From IMG/VR virus record IMGVR_UViG_3300036766_001162, positions 1 through 57,201 of that record: DNA of 57,201 nt. One strand, given 5' to 3'. The translations under genes and the position numbers were made by a program. How positions within the stretch are numbered: position 1 is the first letter of the stretch; every line of letters starts with the position of its first letter. The notes beneath the pieces are model-generated. The model had not been told where the DNA came from. It did no database searches and was given only the letters and a program-made list of their open reading frames with translations. This document shows, piece by piece, positions 3,818 to 22,882 of this stretch. This DNA comes from a virus.

Positions 3818-6800
3818 TCACCCCTCCTCCGCGTTCTTGTCAGATAGCACCAGCAAAAGATCGCATACGCAGCGCGGATGCGCTGTCGGCGCGTCGTCAC
3901 CACTCGGGAATGCCGCGTCGATCGGCACGACGCCGGCCGCGGCATTCGAGTCGCAGTTGCTCGTTACGACGTTCTCGGCTATAAAGAAGCCAGCATCTGC
4001 CGTCAGGTTGAACACCTCGCAGGAGGCCATCCGATGAGCCGTCATCATCACCCGCTCGAACCCGGCGTCATGCGGCGCGTAACCCGCCTTTATCTGCGCG
4101 AGCAGCGTTCGCTTCTGGACGTTGCCGCCGCGACCGGCCTCACATACACGCGCATCCGGAACGCACTCCTGCGCGCGGGATATCCGCTGCGTGGCCGCAC
4201 GGAGGCGGCGAGCCATGTCGTCGCCGCTGCCAAACGCCGAGAGTCGATGATGGCGCGCTATCAGGCCGGCCAGCCACTCGCGAAGATAGCGCAAGCCCTT
4301 GGCCTCACGAGGAGGAATGTGGTGCATCACCTCAGCCAAGCGGGTATCGACCTGCGCCAGCGCCCGGCCATTGCGACCAGCGAATTGCACCGCCTGTACT
4401 TCGATCGCGGCATGTCCGCGCAAGCAATCGGCATGCGGGTGGGAATCTCTGCTGTTACCGTGGGCCAACGTCTTCGCCGCGCGGGCTATACTCTCCGTTC
4501 CAACAGCGATGCCCTCGCACGCTGGTATCAGGGGGTCACCAAGGCCGAGCGCCTCAATCGCCTGCGCGCCGCGCACGCCGAGACGCCGAAGGCCCGCGAG
4601 CGCCGCGGCAATTTCGGTTCGGATACGGAACGCCGTCTCTACGAGTTGATCGCAGATCACGGACGCTTCGCCGTGCAGAAGGCCGTGGGCCGTTACAGTG
4701 TGGACATGGCTACCGATACCGTCGCCGTGGAAATCGCCGGCGGACGTTGGACGGGTCGCCGTTCGTCCCGTAAACGCACCGACTACCTCCTCCAGTCGGG
4801 CTTCCACGTGATCGAAATCGTATGCAGTGCCCAGAGCCGATTTCAGCCAAGTGCCGCTGAGCAGGTAATCGCCTTCCTTCAGGAGGTGAAGCGGCTTCCA
4901 CCCGGCATCCGTGAGCACCGGATGGTTCGGGGTTCCGGTCAGCCGATGACCACTCGACAGGTCCACATCGACTACCGTCCCGCGGTAGTGTCGGCGGAAG
5001 GTGCGATGTAGCGCGCCCGTCGAGACGCGCATGTCGCCGATCAGGCATTCATCGTCCGTGTCGTGCTCACTCCCGAGGACCCATTCCTTGCCCGCGACCT
5101 CGCCGCTGGCCTTCCAGGTCTCGAGGTTGCCGCGGACGAGCGCGTTGCTGATCTCGGTCCGCGCAATCAGCGCGGCCCGCTCGTCGCTGAAGGCGTACGA
5201 GTCCGCCAGCGCGGTCGCGAGATCGGCCTTGCTCCACTGCTCCGCAAAGGCCTCCGCGATCGTGCCGCGCAGGAGTTCGCGGGTGCCATCTGTGATCGCG
5301 TAGGCCGCGTTCGGGTTCTCGCCCACGCTCCCGTCGGGGAGCGTCCGCATGCCGACGAGTTCGGCGGCGCGCGCGTTTGCTGCCGCGACGATCGCGGCAT
5401 TCGGGAGCGCGAAGTCGGCCGCGGTCGGCACCGCCAGGGTGAGCGTCGCCAATGCCTGCGTGGCCCCGCGCTGCCCGATGTCCCCGAGGAGCTGCGCTGT
5501 GGGATCGATCAGAACCGTGAAGCCCGCCATGTCGACGGCGGCCAGCACCTGGTCGACGATGTCCGCAGGCTCGTCCTTCCGCAGCGCGACGCCCACGCCC
5601 TTCGCCAGGTACGGCGCCGCCGCCGCGAGGACCGCCGCCTGCACCGTGACGAAGGCTCCGCGGACACGCTTCGCCAGGGCGCGCTCGGCCTTCTGCACCG
5701 GCGCGGTCGCGCGGGCCGCACCGGCCAGCAACTTCCGCTTCGCGCGGGGGAGGCTGGCGATCGTGACGCGCACCGGGGCTCGCACCGGGGCTCGCTTCGC
5801 CGCGGGCCGCGCGTTCGCCTTGGGCTCCGGCGTCGGCGGCGCGGCCGCGGCGGGCGGCTTCCCACCCCTCGGCGGAGGCGTCCCGCCGTCGGGCGGTGCC
5901 TCGGGTGGTAGCGGCTTCCCATCTGGCCCGAGAACGACCGGGACCACCGGGACCACCGGCTCGGGCGGATTCAGGATGTCGGCCAGCCGCACGGCGCCGT
6001 TGGCCCCACCGTAGATCAGGGCCTGGTCGCCATCCGGGACCGGGTCGAGGCTCTTCGTCTGCCGGACCTCGTTGATCGTGAGGACGCCGAGCTTCAGGTA
6101 CCGCTCGTCGAGCTCGCTCTGTGTCCTCGCATCCGGCGTCCGGGCATCGTCGAAGAAGAAGCCGAGGTCGGTGAAGCCGAAGTCGTGGTGGATGACGTCG
6201 TACGTCATGAGGTCCTGGAAGAACCCCATCAGCGGCAGCGTGCCCTCCTCGAGGGCGACGTCCTGCATAATCTCGCCTGTCGCGCGATTAGTCTGCTTGA
6301 TGAATGCCGTGGGAGGTATATCGAAAGCAAAGCAGATTTTCCGCAGCAGCCACTCGTCGAACTCGTCTTTCAGCGGCGGCAGGCGCGTCTCGTGGAGCGT
6401 GACGCCGGCGCCCCCTGGCACGAACTTGACCTTGCGGCGCTCCTCGGTGCCGCCCTCGAAGAAGCTCGCCCACTTCTGCGCGAACTGCTCGACCTGCGGG
6501 GCGCTCCACCCTTCGGGGAGCGTGACGATCATGTCGGGGATATTGCCCGCCGAGTAGTACTCAAGCTGGGACGTCACGCGGCGGAGCGCCAGGTTGATCG
6601 TGACGAGGATCTGCTCTGTGGGCCCGAACCCGTAAGCGTGCGTGCTCCGCGGATTCCGGGGCCGATAGATCAGCTCGTCCGCCGTGAAATCCGTCGTCGG
6701 CATGCCCTTGATGATCTGGCGGTAGGCCGTTCCGCTGTCGGGCCGGTTCCCGCGTTCGTCGAGCACGGGACGAATGGTGCCGCCGTCGAAGATCTCGAGC

Positions 6801-7309
6801 GCGTAGAGGCCGCCGGCGCGGGTCGGACGCCGGAAGATCGTGAGCGCGTCGACCACCAGCACTTCCTCGAGCGCCTTCCGCAGCCACGTGTTCCACGGCA
6901 GCACGCGGTCGGGCACGCGGAGCAGCGCTTCCACCTGCTGCACTCGCGCATCTCCGGGCTGCACCTTCGCCCGCGGATCGAGGGGCCGCACCGACCAGCC
7001 GAAGCGCGCCATGCGCGACTTGACCGTCTCGATCACGATGCGGACGGAGTCGGAGCCGTCGGCCAGCGCCCGCAGCATCGGGAAGCCGGTCAGCTCCTCG
7101 CCGCGCGGCGTGGTGCGCAGGTTGAAGCCGCTCGGGTAGTCCCAGGAGCGCGCGGGCACCGTGATCGGCGCCACGACCGGTGGTAGCGACCCGGGGCCGA
7201 ACCAGCCGGTCAGTCGCTCATAGACCCGCTGCGCCACCGAGCGGCGGGTATCCGCCGAGGCGGCGACAAGGGTCGGGTCGATCGGCGTGCCCGACAGGCG
7301 GGACGCCAT
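3818..7309 (-). CDS. Portal protein fused to a MuF-type head morphogenesis domain, interrupted by an intein
   Basis: The 1163-residue precursor has three parts. Residues 1 to about 460 are an HK97-type portal (EEVLVVDALTIFRR, NPRSTHAYGFGPTEQI, GEIMQDVALEEGTLP), forming the dodecameric DNA channel at the head vertex. After a Pro/Ala-rich linker, residues about 510-754 and 1119-1163 form a MuF-like domain (ERAALIARTEISNALVRGN ... EWVLGSEHDTDDE, then CDSNAAAGVVPID and TAHPRCVCDLL). Between Glu754 and Cys1119 sits a 364-residue intein. Removing it rejoins DDE to CDSN, restoring the usual MuF region before the terminal HPRCVC motif; the spliced product would have 799 residues. Portal-MuF fusions are known in phages. 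The start at 7309 follows a 17-bp inverted repeat. Confidence 0.92.
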   Translation of the reverse strand: MASRLSGTPIDPTLVAASADTRRSVAQRVYERLTGWFGPGSLPPVVAPITVPARSWDYPSGFNLRTTPRGEELTGFPMLRALADGSDSVRIVIETVKSRMARFGWSVRPLDPRAKVQPGDARVQQVEALLRVPDRVLPWNTWLRKALEEVLVVDALTIFRRPTRAGGLYALEIFDGGTIRPVLDERGNRPDSGTAYRQIIKGMPTTDFTADELIYRPRNPRSTHAYGFGPTEQILVTINLALRRVTSQLEYYSAGNIPDMIVTLPEGWSAPQVEQFAQKWASFFEGGTEERRKVKFVPGGAGVTLHETRLPPLKDEFDEWLLRKICFAFDIPPTAFIKQTNRATGEIMQDVALEEGTLPLMGFFQDLMTYDVIHHDFGFTDLGFFFDDARTPDARTQSELDERYLKLGVLTINEVRQTKSLDPVPDGDQALIYGGANGAVRLADILNPPEPVVPVVPVVLGPDGKPLPPEAPPDGGTPPPRGGKPPAAAAPPTPEPKANARPAAKRAPVRAPVRVTIASLPRAKRKLLAGAARATAPVQKAERALAKRVRGAFVTVQAAVLAAAAPYLAKGVGVALRKDEPADIVDQVLAAVDMAGFTVLIDPTAQLLGDIGQRGATQALATLTLAVPTAADFALPNAAIVAAANARAAELVGMRTLPDGSVGENPNAAYAITDGTRELLRGTIAEAFAEQWSKADLATALADSYAFSDERAALIARTEISNALVRGNLETWKASGEVAGKEWVLGSEHDTDDECLIGDMRVSTGALHRTFRRHYRGTVVDVDLSSGHRLTGTPNHPVLTDAGWKPLHLLKEGDYLLSGTWLKSALGTAYDFDHVEARLEEVVGAFTGRTATRPTSAGDFHGDGIGSHVHTVTAHGLLHGEASVICDQLVETAFRIRTEIAAALAGLRRLGVRGAQAIEALGLGDPLIPACEGIAVGTESIARAAKTLAHGNSRDSHPHADCLRGHAAIEVQAVQFAGRNGRALAQVDTRLAEVMHHIPPREAKGLRYLREWLAGLIARHHRLSAFGSGDDMARRLRAATQRISRAQECVPDARVCEAGRGGNVQKRTLLAQIKAGYAPHDAGFERVMMTAHRMASCEVFNLTADAGFFIAENVVTSNCDSNAAAGVVPIDAAFPSGDDAPTAHPRCVCDLLLVLSDKNAEEG
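4021..4026 (+). promoter_or_regulatory. Ribosome-binding site of the antisense endonuclease gene
   Basis: A perfect AGGAGG lies seven bases before the ATG at 4034. It decides the start: an ORF open from 3878 has no such site. The same bases on the minus strand encode the Ala-Ser-Cys just before intein block F, so one stretch serves both as RBS and as intein codons. Confidence 0.75.
4034..5011 (+). CDS. Putative homing endonuclease (three helix-turn-helix repeats plus Vsr/DUF559-like nuclease), encoded antisense inside the intein
   Basis: A 325-residue protein. Residues about 9-160 contain three related helix-turn-helix units, each ending in an AG-x-x-LR phrase (LLDVAAATGLTYTRIRNALL; LAKIAQALGLTRRNVVHHLS; SAQAIGMRVGISAVTVGQRL). 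Residues about 194-265 resemble the Vsr/DUF559 PD-(D/E)XK fold: SDTERRLYELIADHG, then VGRYSVDMATDTVAVEIAGG with candidate catalytic Asp and Glu, and RKRTDYLLQSGFHVIEIV. DNA-binding repeats joined to such a nuclease suggest a sequence-specific homing enzyme. The gene lies wholly within the intein on the opposite strand, in exact codon register, and has its own AGGAGG. Antisense ORFs in this register are often open by chance in GC-rich DNA, but here the plus-strand protein is the one with recognisable domains. Activity is inferred. Confidence 0.82.
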   Translation: MSRHHHPLEPGVMRRVTRLYLREQRSLLDVAAATGLTYTRIRNALLRAGYPLRGRTEAASHVVAAAKRRESMMARYQAGQPLAKIAQALGLTRRNVVHHLSQAGIDLRQRPAIATSELHRLYFDRGMSAQAIGMRVGISAVTVGQRLRRAGYTLRSNSDALARWYQGVTKAERLNRLRAAHAETPKARERRGNFGSDTERRLYELIADHGRFAVQKAVGRYSVDMATDTVAVEIAGGRWTGRRSSRKRTDYLLQSGFHVIEIVCSAQSRFQPSAAEQVIAFLQEVKRLPPGIREHRMVRGSGQPMTTRQVHIDYRPAVVSAEGAM

Positions 7310-7467: not shown

Positions 7468-7863
7468 TCAGGAGAGCGCCCCGTCGCCCGCGAAGATCGC
7501 GATGCGGCGGACGACGAGATTCTTCGGGTGGTCGTTCTGGCGGTTGCCGTCCAGGCGGATGACGCGCTCGTTCCCCGCCAGCGGGCGCCCGAGGCGCCCT
7601 TCCATGGTGATGCGCGCCAGGGACTTGTAGCCGAGCTGGTCGGCCCCGGGCACGCCGATGCCAACCAGGACGTAGTGATAGCCGCCCCGCAGGATGGTCG
7701 TTGGGGTGGTGGCGCGCCGGTGCTTGGCGTGCGCGCGCTGGCACGCGCGCGAGCAGGTGGGGGCCGCGGCCTTCACCTGCGCCGCCCGCCGGCCGATGGG
7801 GCCGCCGCAGAAGGCGCACGGACGGCGCTCGAGCGCCGGGAGGAAGCGCGCACGGGTGGACAC
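7468..7863 (-). CDS. HNH endonuclease, probably a free-standing homing enzyme
   Basis: A 131-residue protein. It has a zinc-binding pair near the N-terminus (RPCAFCGGPI, then TCSRACQRAHAKH), a middle region (GGYHYVLVGIGVPGADQLGY) and the HNH-like phrase VIRLDGNRQNDHPKNLVVR. DHPKNL is typical of HNH domains where the Asn follows the metal-binding His. Such enzymes often sit between terminase and portal genes of phages, where some assist packaging and others are selfish homing enzymes. The 158-bp gap downstream holds a dispersed repeat and a large inverted repeat. Family assignment is fairly secure; role unknown. Confidence 0.75.
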   Translation of the reverse strand: MSTRARFLPALERRPCAFCGGPIGRRAAQVKAAAPTCSRACQRAHAKHRRATTPTTILRGGYHYVLVGIGVPGADQLGYKSLARITMEGRLGRPLAGNERVIRLDGNRQNDHPKNLVVRRIAIFAGDGALS

Positions 7864-8618: not shown

Positions 8619-8806
8619 CGTGTGCACCGCTGCTCGCCCTTGCCTTGCGGGAGTCGCAGGCCCACGCGGCCACCGGAGAGGAGCGCCGCCACCGCAACGG
8701 GCCCGACGTGCTCGAGACAGATCGGGCGACTCGTCGGGTCGTCCTCATCATCGAGCACGAGCTGGGCCCGCTTCGGGCAGGTCCCCATTCGGCGATCGTC
8801 GCTCAT
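8615..8806 (-). CDS. Small protein downstream of the large terminase, function unknown
   Basis: A 63-residue protein starting MSDDRRMGTCPKRAQLVLDD and containing three Cys (GTCPKR, RPICLEH, RCTR). Its ATG at 8806 overlaps the terminase stop as ATGA. The spacing of Cys and His could bind a metal, but no known zinc-finger pattern is complete. Confidence 0.6.
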   Translation of the reverse strand: MSDDRRMGTCPKRAQLVLDDEDDPTSRPICLEHVGPVAVAALLSGGRVGLRLPQGKGEQRCTR

Positions 8807-10242
8807 GCTACTGCATCCTCCTTCGGCGCCTGCGCCGCCACCTTCGCGTCGAGCCAGCCCATGAGCCCGTGGTCCGTGGTCGCGAACGCGAGCATCATCG
8901 CCTCGGCGCGGTCTGGGCTTTTCACACCCCGCTTCTGCGCCTCCTCCTTGCTCTCGATCTCCATCTGGCCACGCGCGTTGTGGCGGTACCGGAGCCCGGC
9001 CAGCTGACTGACGGCGCGCTGGCTCCCGACGCCCGAGACGGCGCCGTCCTTGAAGCGCTGGCGGAGGCCGTCGTAGAGCTCGGCCTTCAGGTTCTTGTAG
9101 CGCTCCGAGTTCCGCGGGGCCTCGCCGACGTTGATGAACTCGACCGGGAAGCCCAGGTCCTCCAGGTGGCGGGCCAGGTAGTAGCCGATCCCCGCGCTGT
9201 CGACCTTCACCGAGCGGAGTCGCGGCTTGAACGGCGTCAGCGTCGCCACGATCTCGCCCCGCGGGTCCTGATTCGGCCAGGCCCGCTCGAGCAGCACGCG
9301 CGGCCCCTCGACCAGGTCGAGTACCGTCTCGTCTTCCCCGGGGCCCGCGACATCGATGCCCGCGTCGAGGGGGCCGCCGCCATCGGTGATGTCCCGCGCC
9401 TGCGCCGCCTCGAGCCAGGCGAGGCTGATGAGCGCGTCCTCGCTCTGCGCCGGGAACGATCCCAGGACGCGCGCCTCCCAGAGCGGGTGACCCGGCCCCC
9501 ACTCGGAGTGCTTCTCCTTCACCCACCGGCGCGTCGTCAGGTAGGGACGCACGTTCGTGTCGAGCGCCTCCTCCGGCATCCCGAGGATGTCCTCGAGCGT
9601 CAGCCCGGCCAGGTTCGGCGTGTCGAACGCGCCGATGGTGAACGGCGCCCAGCCGTCGCGGTTGTCGGTGAAGGCGTCATGAAACGGCCCGCTCGCAATC
9701 GTCGGATTCCCGAGGGCCAGGATTCGCACGTCGCCGCCGGCGCGCGCGCCTTCGATGGCCTCCCAGATGTCCGGCTTCACGCCGGGCGCCTCGTCGAGGA
9801 TGACCAGGATGTGGTTGCCGTGGAAGCCCTGGAACCGCACGCCCTCGTTGGTCGACAGGCCGATGGCGTAGTTCCCGGGGCCGAGCTTCAGCTCCGTGGT
9901 GTTGGCCTTCGGGTAGGCGATCCGCGCGCTCGCGATCGCCTTGTGGATCTCGCCCCAGAGCAGAAGCTCCACCTGCGTCCACGTGGGTGCCGTCGTAACG
10001 ACGATGCCGTCGTCGAAGCGCGTCACCCACCAGAGCGCCGCCAGGGCGGCGACCATGGTCTTGCCGCTGGCGTGGCAGGCCTTCACGGCGGTACGCGGGC
10101 GCGTCGCCACGGAGCGGAGGATGGCTTCCTGCGTGGCCCACAGGTCTTGCTGTAGAAACGTCTGAGCAAAGGCCACCGGATCCATCAGGCATTCGACGGC
10201 CTGGCCCTCCAGCCGTTCGCGATCGTCTCCCGCCGCGTTCAT
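8803..10242 (-). CDS. terL: Terminase large subunit
   Basis: The 479-residue packaging motor: an ATPase that drives DNA into the prohead through the portal, and a nuclease that cuts the concatemer. Visible motifs are Walker A CHASGKT (56-62), Walker B ILVILDEA (145-152), and an RNase H-like nuclease region with Asp297 in AGIDVAGPG and Asp348 in VKVDSAGIG, ending with SPDRAEAMMLAF. Length and order are normal for the family. The start overlaps the small-subunit stop. The cohesive-end, headful or other packaging mode cannot be told from the sequence. Confidence 0.95.
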   Translation of the reverse strand: MNAAGDDRERLEGQAVECLMDPVAFAQTFLQQDLWATQEAILRSVATRPRTAVKACHASGKTMVAALAALWWVTRFDDGIVVTTAPTWTQVELLLWGEIHKAIASARIAYPKANTTELKLGPGNYAIGLSTNEGVRFQGFHGNHILVILDEAPGVKPDIWEAIEGARAGGDVRILALGNPTIASGPFHDAFTDNRDGWAPFTIGAFDTPNLAGLTLEDILGMPEEALDTNVRPYLTTRRWVKEKHSEWGPGHPLWEARVLGSFPAQSEDALISLAWLEAAQARDITDGGGPLDAGIDVAGPGEDETVLDLVEGPRVLLERAWPNQDPRGEIVATLTPFKPRLRSVKVDSAGIGYYLARHLEDLGFPVEFINVGEAPRNSERYKNLKAELYDGLRQRFKDGAVSGVGSQRAVSQLAGLRYRHNARGQMEIESKEEAQKRGVKSPDRAEAMMLAFATTDHGLMGWLDAKVAAQAPKEDAVA

Positions 10243-21369: not shown

Positions 21370-21659
21370 GCCTCCGCGACACCTGGCGCCCGGACCCGGG
21401 CACGGGCCTCCTCGGCACCAGCCGGATGGCGAGCGAGCGCGGGGCACGCGACGCCCGCGACGACCGGCCGCTCTGCGAGGTCTTCGAATGCACGGGCTGC
21501 CGGCACCTCCAGGTGCAGCGCGTGCCGGACCGGCCGGGGCAGTTCCGCGTGATCGACCGTTGTAACCGCTGCCACCAGCCGGTGCGCAGCCTCGGGCGTG
21601 CGCGCGAGGGCGAGCAGCTCCCCGGCGCCACCCCCATCACGAAAGGAGTCCTTCCATGA
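21366..21659 (+). CDS. Small zinc-ribbon protein
   Basis: A 97-residue protein with a four-Cys site: CEVFECTGCRHLQVQRVPD, then RVIDRCNRCHQPVRS. The C-terminus ends PITKGVLP and its coding end contains the RBS GAAAGGAG of the recombinase gene. ATGA overlaps on both sides show tight coupling to the recombination module, so it may bind DNA or the ATPase; that is inference. Confidence 0.7.
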   Translation: MSLRDTWRPDPGTGLLGTSRMASERGARDARDDRPLCEVFECTGCRHLQVQRVPDRPGQFRVIDRCNRCHQPVRSLGRAREGEQLPGATPITKGVLP

Positions 21660-22882
21660 GCACCCCCCACGCCGTCACGTTCAGCAAGGCCACCAAGAAG
21701 CAGGCTCGCGCGCGCGTCGCCTTCTGCGGCCCCTCGGGCACCGGCAAGACGTTCACCGCGCTCTCCGTCGCGCGCGGCCTCGTCGGCCCCGAGGGGCGCA
21801 TCGCCCTCATCGACAGCGAGCACGGCTCGGCCGCCAAGTACGCCGACCTCTTCGACTTCGACCACTGCATCCTGACGTCGTTCAGCCCGGACCGGTACGT
21901 CGAGGCCATCCACGTCGCCGAAGAAGGCGGCTACGACGCGATCGTCCTCGACTCGCTCTCGCACGCCTGGATGGGGAAGGACGGCGCGCTTGAGCAGGTC
22001 GACGCCGCCGCCGACCGGTCGCGGTCGGGCAACAAGTTCGTCGCCTGGCGCGAGGTGACGCCGAAGCACCAGGCGCTCGTCGAGGCGATCCTGCAGTCCG
22101 CCTGCCACGTGTTCGCCACGATGCGGTCCAAGACCGAGTACATCCTCGAGAAGGACGAGAAGGGGAACAGCGTGCCGCGGAAGATCGGCATGGCTCCCGT
22201 CCAGCGGGACGGCATCGAGTTCGAGTTCGACGTCGTCGGCGACCTCGATCTCCGGCACAAGCTGCTGGTGACGAAGTCGCGGTGCCCGGAGCTGGCCGAC
22301 CAGGTGATCGAGAAGCCGGGCGCCCGCTTCGGCGAGCGACTCCGCGCCTGGCTGACCGACGGCGCCCCGGCGACGCCGCCCTCCCCCGAGGTGGTGATCG
22401 GCGGGCGCACCTACCGGACCGCCGGCATCACCGCCGCCGACGTCCAGGTGGTGCGCGATCTCTCGGCCGCGCTGGATGCGCTGCGCGGCGAAGGCGCGGG
22501 CCGCGCCCTGATGCTCGCCACAGTGCAGAAGGATCGGCTGGTCATGCTCACCGCCCCCGAGGGCACCAGCGTGATTGGGGCCCTCCGGGCCGCCATCACC
22601 GGGGTCACGGGGACGCCGCCGGTGGCGGGTAGCACCCCGACGCCGGCGCCCGACGAGACCCCCACCGGCTCGGGCATGATCACCCTCGGGCAGCGCGGCA
22701 CCCTCCTCGAAGCGTGCTGCGAGTCTGGGCTCGGGTACGAGACGCTCAAGGAGTACCTCGGGCGCGAGCACGGGATCGCTGCGGTGTCGGACATCCCGGT
22801 TGCCCTCTACCCGACAGTCGAGGCCTGGATCCGGGCCGCGGCCGCGACCCGCCCGGAAGCCGCGGGGTCGTCGGCCGCATGA
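21656..22882 (+). CDS. Sak4-like RecA-fold ATPase (single-strand annealing/recombination)
   Basis: A 408-residue AAA ATPase of the Sak4 type. Walker A is FCGPSGTGKT (23-32), Walker B YDAIVLDSLSHAW (93-105), with IALIDSEHGSAAKY between. Sak4 proteins are truncated RecA/Rad51 relatives that work with phage SSB in single-strand annealing. The extended C-terminus (about 250-408, with QVVRDLSAALDALRGEGAGR and a Pro-rich linker) is longer than the core family and may add a second function. It lies directly before an exonuclease and near an SSB gene, the usual recombination cassette. Confidence 0.88.
   Translation: MSTPHAVTFSKATKKQARARVAFCGPSGTGKTFTALSVARGLVGPEGRIALIDSEHGSAAKYADLFDFDHCILTSFSPDRYVEAIHVAEEGGYDAIVLDSLSHAWMGKDGALEQVDAAADRSRSGNKFVAWREVTPKHQALVEAILQSACHVFATMRSKTEYILEKDEKGNSVPRKIGMAPVQRDGIEFEFDVVGDLDLRHKLLVTKSRCPELADQVIEKPGARFGERLRAWLTDGAPATPPSPEVVIGGRTYRTAGITAADVQVVRDLSAALDALRGEGAGRALMLATVQKDRLVMLTAPEGTSVIGALRAAITGVTGTPPVAGSTPTPAPDETPTGSGMITLGQRGTLLEACCESGLGYETLKEYLGREHGIAAVSDIPVALYPTVEAWIRAAAATRPEAAGSSAA

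Follow-up and report, generated by a model that had tools for sequence, protein, structure and literature searches.

A putative homing endonuclease gene encoded antisense, in exact codon register, within the intein of a phage portal-MuF protein

Introduction

In canonical inteins the endonuclease—LAGLIDADG or HNH—is an in-frame domain. The locus analyzed here raises the question of whether this activity might instead be encoded by a separate gene on the opposite strand. The window, i.e., the whole stretch of DNA under study, is a 57.2-kb virus record in which a portal-MuF fusion precursor, encoded on the minus strand, is the host gene of an intein. A preliminary description of this DNA had proposed that a homing endonuclease-like gene lies antisense within the intein. 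We ask whether the antisense open reading frame (ORF) is a selected protein, whether the sense element is still an intein, and whether the antisense product is likely to be a homing enzyme.

Results

The precursor gene (3818-7309, minus strand) encodes 1163 residues in a single open frame. In profile searches, the portal part of its product matches PHROG 2662 (E 7e-79), and head morphogenesis families match the precursor over residues 652-755. The intein, 364 residues from C1 to N364 (3956-5047, minus strand), sits at DTDDE|C of the MuF part. Block B (GHRLTGTPNHPVLTDAGW; 4898-4951, minus strand) contains TPNHPVLT, the block F zone (3974-4030, minus strand) contains EVFNL, and block G (AENVVTSN; 3956-3979, minus strand) ends at the C-terminal junction TSN|C. 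The criteria of a Hint intein—a block A nucleophile, TxxH in block B, a C-terminal Asn followed by Cys/Ser/Thr, and a Hint fold—are met. In contrast, the criterion that defines canonical endonuclease-bearing inteins, an endonuclease in frame and on the same strand, is not. Searches of the sense translation of the precursor with Pfam/PHROG-type profiles found no match to a same-strand endonuclease; such a match would have refuted the preliminary description.

The antisense ORF, a homing endonuclease gene by inference, spans 325 codons on the plus strand (4034-5011). It is preceded by a Shine-Dalgarno sequence, AGGAGG (4021-4026, plus strand), which lies antisense to the block F zone, 7 nt before its ATG at 4034, and its stop codon, TAG (5009-5011, plus strand), is the antisense of the intein Leu13 codon CTA. 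The tail of the product, HRMVRGSGQ, is encoded by the strand opposite block B. Upstream of 4034, the plus frame continues without a stop as far back as an ATG at 3878; the start that bears a Shine-Dalgarno sequence is the one at 4034. All of the coordinates given in the preliminary description for the intein, the ORF, and its AGGAGG proved right, and so did the exact register: the two frames share their codon boundaries, each with starts at positions equal to 2 mod 3. In this register, the first position of a sense codon is the third position of an endonuclease codon. Many long antisense ORFs occur in the same register in the window, and in a GC-rich genome such an ORF is by itself weak evidence. 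This one stands above chance because of its codon-position pattern, its fold, its conserved catalytic residues, and its conserved start and stop signals.

The protein encoded by the plus strand has the domains that had been proposed for it—three helix-turn-helix (HTH) repeats and a Vsr/DUF559-like domain—as judged by profile matches, with DUF559 just under the cut-off, and by a fold model. The HTH units occupy residues 10-149 (4061-4480, plus strand) and resemble sigma region 4 and Cbp1; the product matches sigma/HTH families with an E value of 7e-8. The Vsr/PD-(D/E)XK-like catalytic domain, recognized by structure match and conserved residues, spans residues 194-308 (4613-4957, plus strand). 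Matches to Pfam nuclease families are subthreshold, at 19.8 bits for DUF559 (E 7e-4, cut-off 20.6) and 14.4 bits for MTES_1575 (cut-off 38.2). The AlphaFold2 (AF2) model of the antisense product has an overall pLDDT of 88. After realignment with VIA, its best fold match is the endonuclease-like protein NGO0050 (3hrl, Z 9.8), followed by Vsr (Z 9.4) and I-Bth0305I (3r3p, Z 9.2, rmsd 2.4 over 89 aligned residues). It is this realignment that ranks Vsr-like structures on top, not Foldseek, which alone gave no match for the model at an E value below 0.001. A sequence profile of the endonuclease also finds NGO0050 (E 4e-5) and I-Bth0305I (E 0.0012). Three residues of the catalytic domain stand out by conservation: D224 and E233 (at 4703 and 4730, plus strand) are invariant in 58 of 58 diverse members, and E199 (at 4628, plus strand) is present in 55 of them. 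The family motif is E...D...VAVExxGGxWH, with WH in most members and WT in the window. Set beside the E-D-xHD motif, without a residue-by-residue superposition, the family conserves E199 and D224, followed by the invariant E233 and, mostly, WH. On the sense strand, a conserved motif DFHGDG (4719-4735, minus strand) aligns as the antisense shadow of the catalytic VAVE. The same motif recurs across annotated phage head proteins, in which it is the reverse reading of VAVE. DFHGDG has been built into at least one published head-protein profile (PHROG 15127), though it reflects the antisense nuclease rather than the head protein.

The antisense layout is widely conserved. The plus-strand product has matches in 103 phage records and the minus-strand intein in 119; the two map to the same capsid genes, on opposite strands. 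When viral contigs were scanned, the window endonuclease by itself retrieved no relative, and a profile of eight diverse endonucleases lacked any segment of sufficient conservation for scanning; a profile of the sense intein retrieved at least 568 loci encoding relatives. Our first set consisted of 89 loci, namely the best 80 of these (at least 568) viral loci, eight annotated phages, and the window, and in all 89 the endonuclease is antisense in the same exact register. Nine further phages share layout and register: Actinobacillus Aaphi23, Vibrio H2, Klebsiella P12620-1, E. coli KMB36, Salmonella PhiSTP2, Idiomarinaceae 1N2-2, and the Gordonia phages Keitabear, Fosterous, and Angelicage. In bacterial genomes, the layout is found at 65 of 77 intein loci, which span Actinobacteria, Chloroflexi, Planctomycetes, Proteobacteria, Firmicutes, and others. 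The remaining 12 align only around block B, show no antisense match, and look like unrelated inteins. Conservation of the antisense ORF among relatives, which had been put forward as a check, therefore extends to more than 150 loci overall, including those of AT-richer phages such as Aaphi23 and ES2. The host genes are mostly MuF or portal-MuF fusions; a portal gene (locus L010) and a terminase-like gene (L057) also serve. Because the examples from which we built the profiles carry the antisense gene, the frequency of the layout is overstated; in addition, the profiles of the two strands share information. In Salmonella phage GE_vB_M4 (L098), both frames seem to be broken; this locus was disregarded, since its record is labeled UNVERIFIED and none of its frames is intact.

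The conserved start and stop signals of the antisense gene are found within the splicing blocks of the intein. In most relatives, the antisense strand of block F carries a Shine-Dalgarno sequence and a start codon, the latter exactly 60 nt inside the C-terminal end of the intein: block F HVYNLQ, CATGTGTACAACCTCCAG, reads in antisense CTGGAGGTTGTACACATG, i.e., a Shine-Dalgarno sequence and an ATG. Codon choice follows suit in two separate sets, the first loci and the bacterial genomes. The block F Leu is CTC in 35 of 43 cases (10.3 expected) in the former and 22 of 32 (9.4 expected) in the latter, and the block F His is CAT in 38 of 46 (21.3 expected) and 34 of 41 (17 expected). Likewise, the endonuclease stop often lies at intein residue 2, Leu2 being CTA or TTA in 24 of 32 cases (3.3 expected) and in 12 of 14 (2.7 expected), respectively. 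The antisense of block G holds a -10 box at one fixed position in 38 of 105 distinct loci (TATAAT in 28, TACAAT in 10). Its source is the rare Ile codon ATA (33/56, 8.8 expected) after ATT (46/76, 19.1 expected), and an NCA codon (38/66, 9.5 expected) supplies the TG of an extended -10. To judge from these sequences, the antisense signals are set by synonymous codon choice within blocks G, F, and A; their presence is observed, and their use is inferred. In the window, the signals are shifted. The block F His is lost (EVFNL), the start lies 18 nt inward with a new AGGAGG, and the stop is at Leu13. Block G gives no good -10 box—TACGAC is read at the position conserved in relatives—and a possible promoter upstream of the endonuclease (TTGCTC-N17-TATAAA; 3957-3985, plus strand) is weak.

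The exact register makes it possible to determine which strand is under selection. In the middle of the intein, mismatch rates at sense positions 1/2/3 are 0.51/0.28/0.35, versus 0.16/0.08/0.55 in the terminal splicing zone before the endonuclease stop and 0.23/0.16/0.46 in that of block G. The position-1 excess in the middle is seen with alignments in either frame, sense or antisense, and the endonuclease third position is the most variable one there in 16 of 16 sequence pairs, not all of which are phylogenetically independent. Across these pairs, the middle shows 624 codon changes that leave the endonuclease unchanged and alter the sense protein, compared with 176 that are silent in the sense frame and alter the endonuclease, for near-equal neutral opportunities (6299 endonuclease-silent to 6716 sense-silent). 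The splicing blocks show the reverse pattern, with 73 endonuclease-silent versus 262 sense-silent changes. Purifying selection on the plus strand, the second check that had been proposed, is thus borne out, and the antisense ORF is confirmed as a real, selected protein. Because codon changes in the middle favor those that are silent in the endonuclease, the sense middle is little more than a stop-free tether between the ends of an ordinary intein. The prediction that the minus strand must stay open, which forbids TTA, CTA, and TCA in the endonuclease, is met without exception: none of these codons was observed in the endonuclease frame in 140 loci versus ~778 expected, a count based on the codon usage of the flanking host gene and from which eight loci with mis-set ends were excluded. 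The exact register costs the enzyme no amino acid, because all three forbidden codons have synonyms, and we infer that this synonym-only cost may lie behind a register that never changes. The notion that GC-rich codon usage alone produced the antisense ORF, with only the sense intein coding, could appeal to the many such ORFs in exact register in the window and to the conservation of DFHGDG, readable as an intein constraint, yet it was rejected on the codon-position data, in which the pattern of the middle is that of the antisense frame, and it retains next to no credibility when the antisense product folds confidently as a nuclease and the sense middle does not, the layout is kept in AT-richer Aaphi23 and ES2, and the choice of start, stop, and -10 codons is inexplicable from the sense side.

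Is the sense element still an intein? It could be degenerate, the endonuclease being functional in an element that no longer splices or that the portal tolerates as an insertion. This possibility draws on two window residues or motifs that depart from the consensus (a penultimate Ser for His and, in block F, EVFNL for HVYNL) and on the Pfam Intein_splicing match to the insert, which at E 1e-6 is below the curated cut-off. However, the catalytic residues C1, TPNH, N364, and C+1 are all in place. Residues 1-60 and 331-364—the Hint ends—are modeled by AF2 with a pLDDT of 92-98, the poorly predicted part (pLDDT mostly 30-77) being the sense-frame middle, and the splicing blocks of relatives are under ordinary sense-strand purifying selection. 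We consider degeneracy unlikely and retain the reading in which an antisense gene is nested in a mini-intein that would splice.

The remaining question is whether the insert moves. A Jerseyvirus MuF query from which the intein had been removed matched 402 of 488 phage records over at least 80% of its length. These uninterrupted sites are up to 93% identical, in one piece each among the matches listed, and the remaining records are split. With a Gordonia query, the site is uninterrupted in 97 of 160 records, up to 94% identical. Such uninterrupted sites in close relatives indicate, as far as sequence comparison can, that the insert is mobile. Two MuF sites are in use among Kagunaviruses: the Snoke intein lies at HPN|C and the KMB36 intein at the other MuF cysteine, each phage being uninterrupted at the site of the other, and the site in the window is of the KMB36 kind. 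One and the same site holds two different inteins in Gordonia phages whose flanks are nearly identical. The preliminary description would have been undermined by homologs in which the plus-strand ORF is broken and the sense insert is conserved as protein. This is not what the two broken copies that we found suggest: L132, with an internal stop in the endonuclease, and L138, with an endonuclease both shortened and broken, keep the sense frame open and look like the decay phase of a homing cycle.

These observations bear on an alternative in which the antisense protein is selected and is not a homing enzyme for its own site, acting rather as a repressor of the portal transcript, a nuclease directed against competitors, or a free DNA-binding regulator. 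The resemblance of the HTH units to sigma region 4 and Cbp1 is compatible with such roles, antisense transcription could also dampen the late gene, and there are no cleavage-specificity data for the endonuclease. Nevertheless, the invariant catalytic D and E in a Vsr/I-Bth0305I fold, the patchy occurrence with uninterrupted alleles in close genomes, and the decayed copies with an open sense frame all best fit a homing cycle, so we regard a purely regulatory or defensive role as unlikely.

Discussion

We conclude, with a probability of roughly 0.88, that the insert comprises a mini-intein within which an autonomous homing endonuclease gene lies antisense. Our computed support covers conservation, selection on the antisense strand, fold, catalytic residues, signal positions, and empty sites; expression, splicing, target recognition, cleavage, and homing are inferred. 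The insert would be a mobile element of two fully overlapping genes. The sense frame would encode a mini-intein whose Hint domain is assembled from both ends and which splices itself out of the portal-MuF precursor. The antisense frame would encode a homing endonuclease with a Vsr-like fold and three HTH units. Its transcription and translation would be independent, by means of a -10 box provided by block G, a ribosome-binding site and start provided by block F, and a stop provided by block A. This enzyme is predicted to bind MuF alleles that lack the intein and to cleave them at the point of insertion; repair of the double-strand break with the intein allele as template would then copy the entire insert. 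More broadly, and with less assurance, we think it probable that these loci represent a class of mobile inteins that is widespread among the phages and prophages of Actinobacteria, Proteobacteria, Chloroflexi, Planctomycetes, Firmicutes, and other groups. In this class, a complete and autonomously expressed endonuclease gene would be antisense to and coextensive with the intein, and its promoter, ribosome-binding site, start, and stop would lie in the conserved splicing motifs. The same bases would then fix both the splicing chemistry and the expression of the endonuclease, and the timing of this expression could be set independently of the late capsid transcript.

Comparison with known systems highlights similarities and differences. 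With canonical inteins, these elements share a Hint splicing domain, a conserved capsid or packaging host gene, and a sporadic distribution with empty alleles; the difference is that the endonuclease is there an in-frame domain of the spliced polypeptide and here a separate antisense gene. With I-Bth0305I (EDxHD) and Vsr-like homing endonucleases, they share a Vsr-type fold, helical DNA-binding modules, and a phage homing context, but the motif is here E...D...VAVExxGGxWH and the modules are ordered HTH3-catalytic. Moreover, I-Bth0305I sits in a group I intron, whereas the window enzyme is antisense in an intein. Antisense homing endonuclease genes have been described in the nuclear rDNA group I introns Dir.S956-2 and Dsq.L2066 (PMC9548176). 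There too the gene lies opposite a self-splicing element and has its own transcription, which for our locus is inferred, but it occupies a peripheral loop of the ribozyme and shares no protein-coding sequence (PMC9548176), whereas every endonuclease codon here doubles as a codon of the sense protein. Finally, in ShiLan-type insertions in phage methylases, the reading frame of a phage protein gene likewise continues across an insert in which an endonuclease is concealed in a different frame. That endonuclease is an HNH enzyme on the same strand and out of frame, with no intein splicing blocks and no detectable ribosome-binding site (PMC11855218). The window element, being antisense, Vsr-like in fold, and located within a real intein with splicing blocks, a Shine-Dalgarno sequence, and promoter-like signals, does not meet the criteria of this type.

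In the literature that we searched, no antisense endonuclease is described within an intein. The search did not cover a 2025 preprint (10.1101/2025.01.02.630785), which PMC11855218 cites on non-canonical actinobacteriophage inteins with overlapping reading frames. Part of the antisense layout may already be described there, Gordonia MuF inteins being in its scope. The earlier statement that no family with this layout had been described holds for the literature searched and needs to be qualified for antisense endonuclease genes as such, which are known in group I introns (PMC9548176).

If our reading is correct, an intein can divide endonuclease activity and splicing between separate polypeptides, encoded even on different strands. 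The loci also provide a large collection of natural antisense genes that overlap over their full length, and since the folds of both products are known, they allow site-by-site measurement of selection on overlapping codes. The recurrent and so far unexplained DFHGDG of annotated phage head proteins is accounted for as the shadow of a nuclease active site. The gene family has been largely missed by current phage annotation: the records that we inspected name the sense protein alone, save for fragmentary hypothetical ORFs in a few. These elements may also be a source of small inteins and rare-cutting endonucleases for use.

Several minor observations concern individual loci. Three inteins (L037, L067, and L076) are short, with 183-191 residues, and keep VAVE and both open frames, their antisense genes having lost much between the first HTH and the catalytic strands. 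Those of L148 and L170 appear to begin with Ala rather than Cys (NAIFEGTEV and NAVMAGTQI) and keep the antisense gene; they appear, from these residues, to belong to a different splicing class. L030 has a much longer host stretch with two separate antisense endonuclease matches (from 3001 onwards, and 1657-2814 on the minus strand), possibly two nested elements in one gene. L136 and L137 are near-identical copies of the element on one chromosome of Paenibacillus sp. P25, presumably in two prophages. In the window itself, a free-standing HNH endonuclease gene (7468-7863, minus strand; PHROG 20891, E 1e-10) lies between the gene for the terminase large subunit (8803-10242) and that for portal-MuF, adjoining the intein-bearing gene. 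Farther away, a gene on the strand opposite the structural genes (21656-22882, plus strand) matches PHROG 1366 (E 4e-82) and shows weak similarity to Sak4/UvsX-like recombinases.
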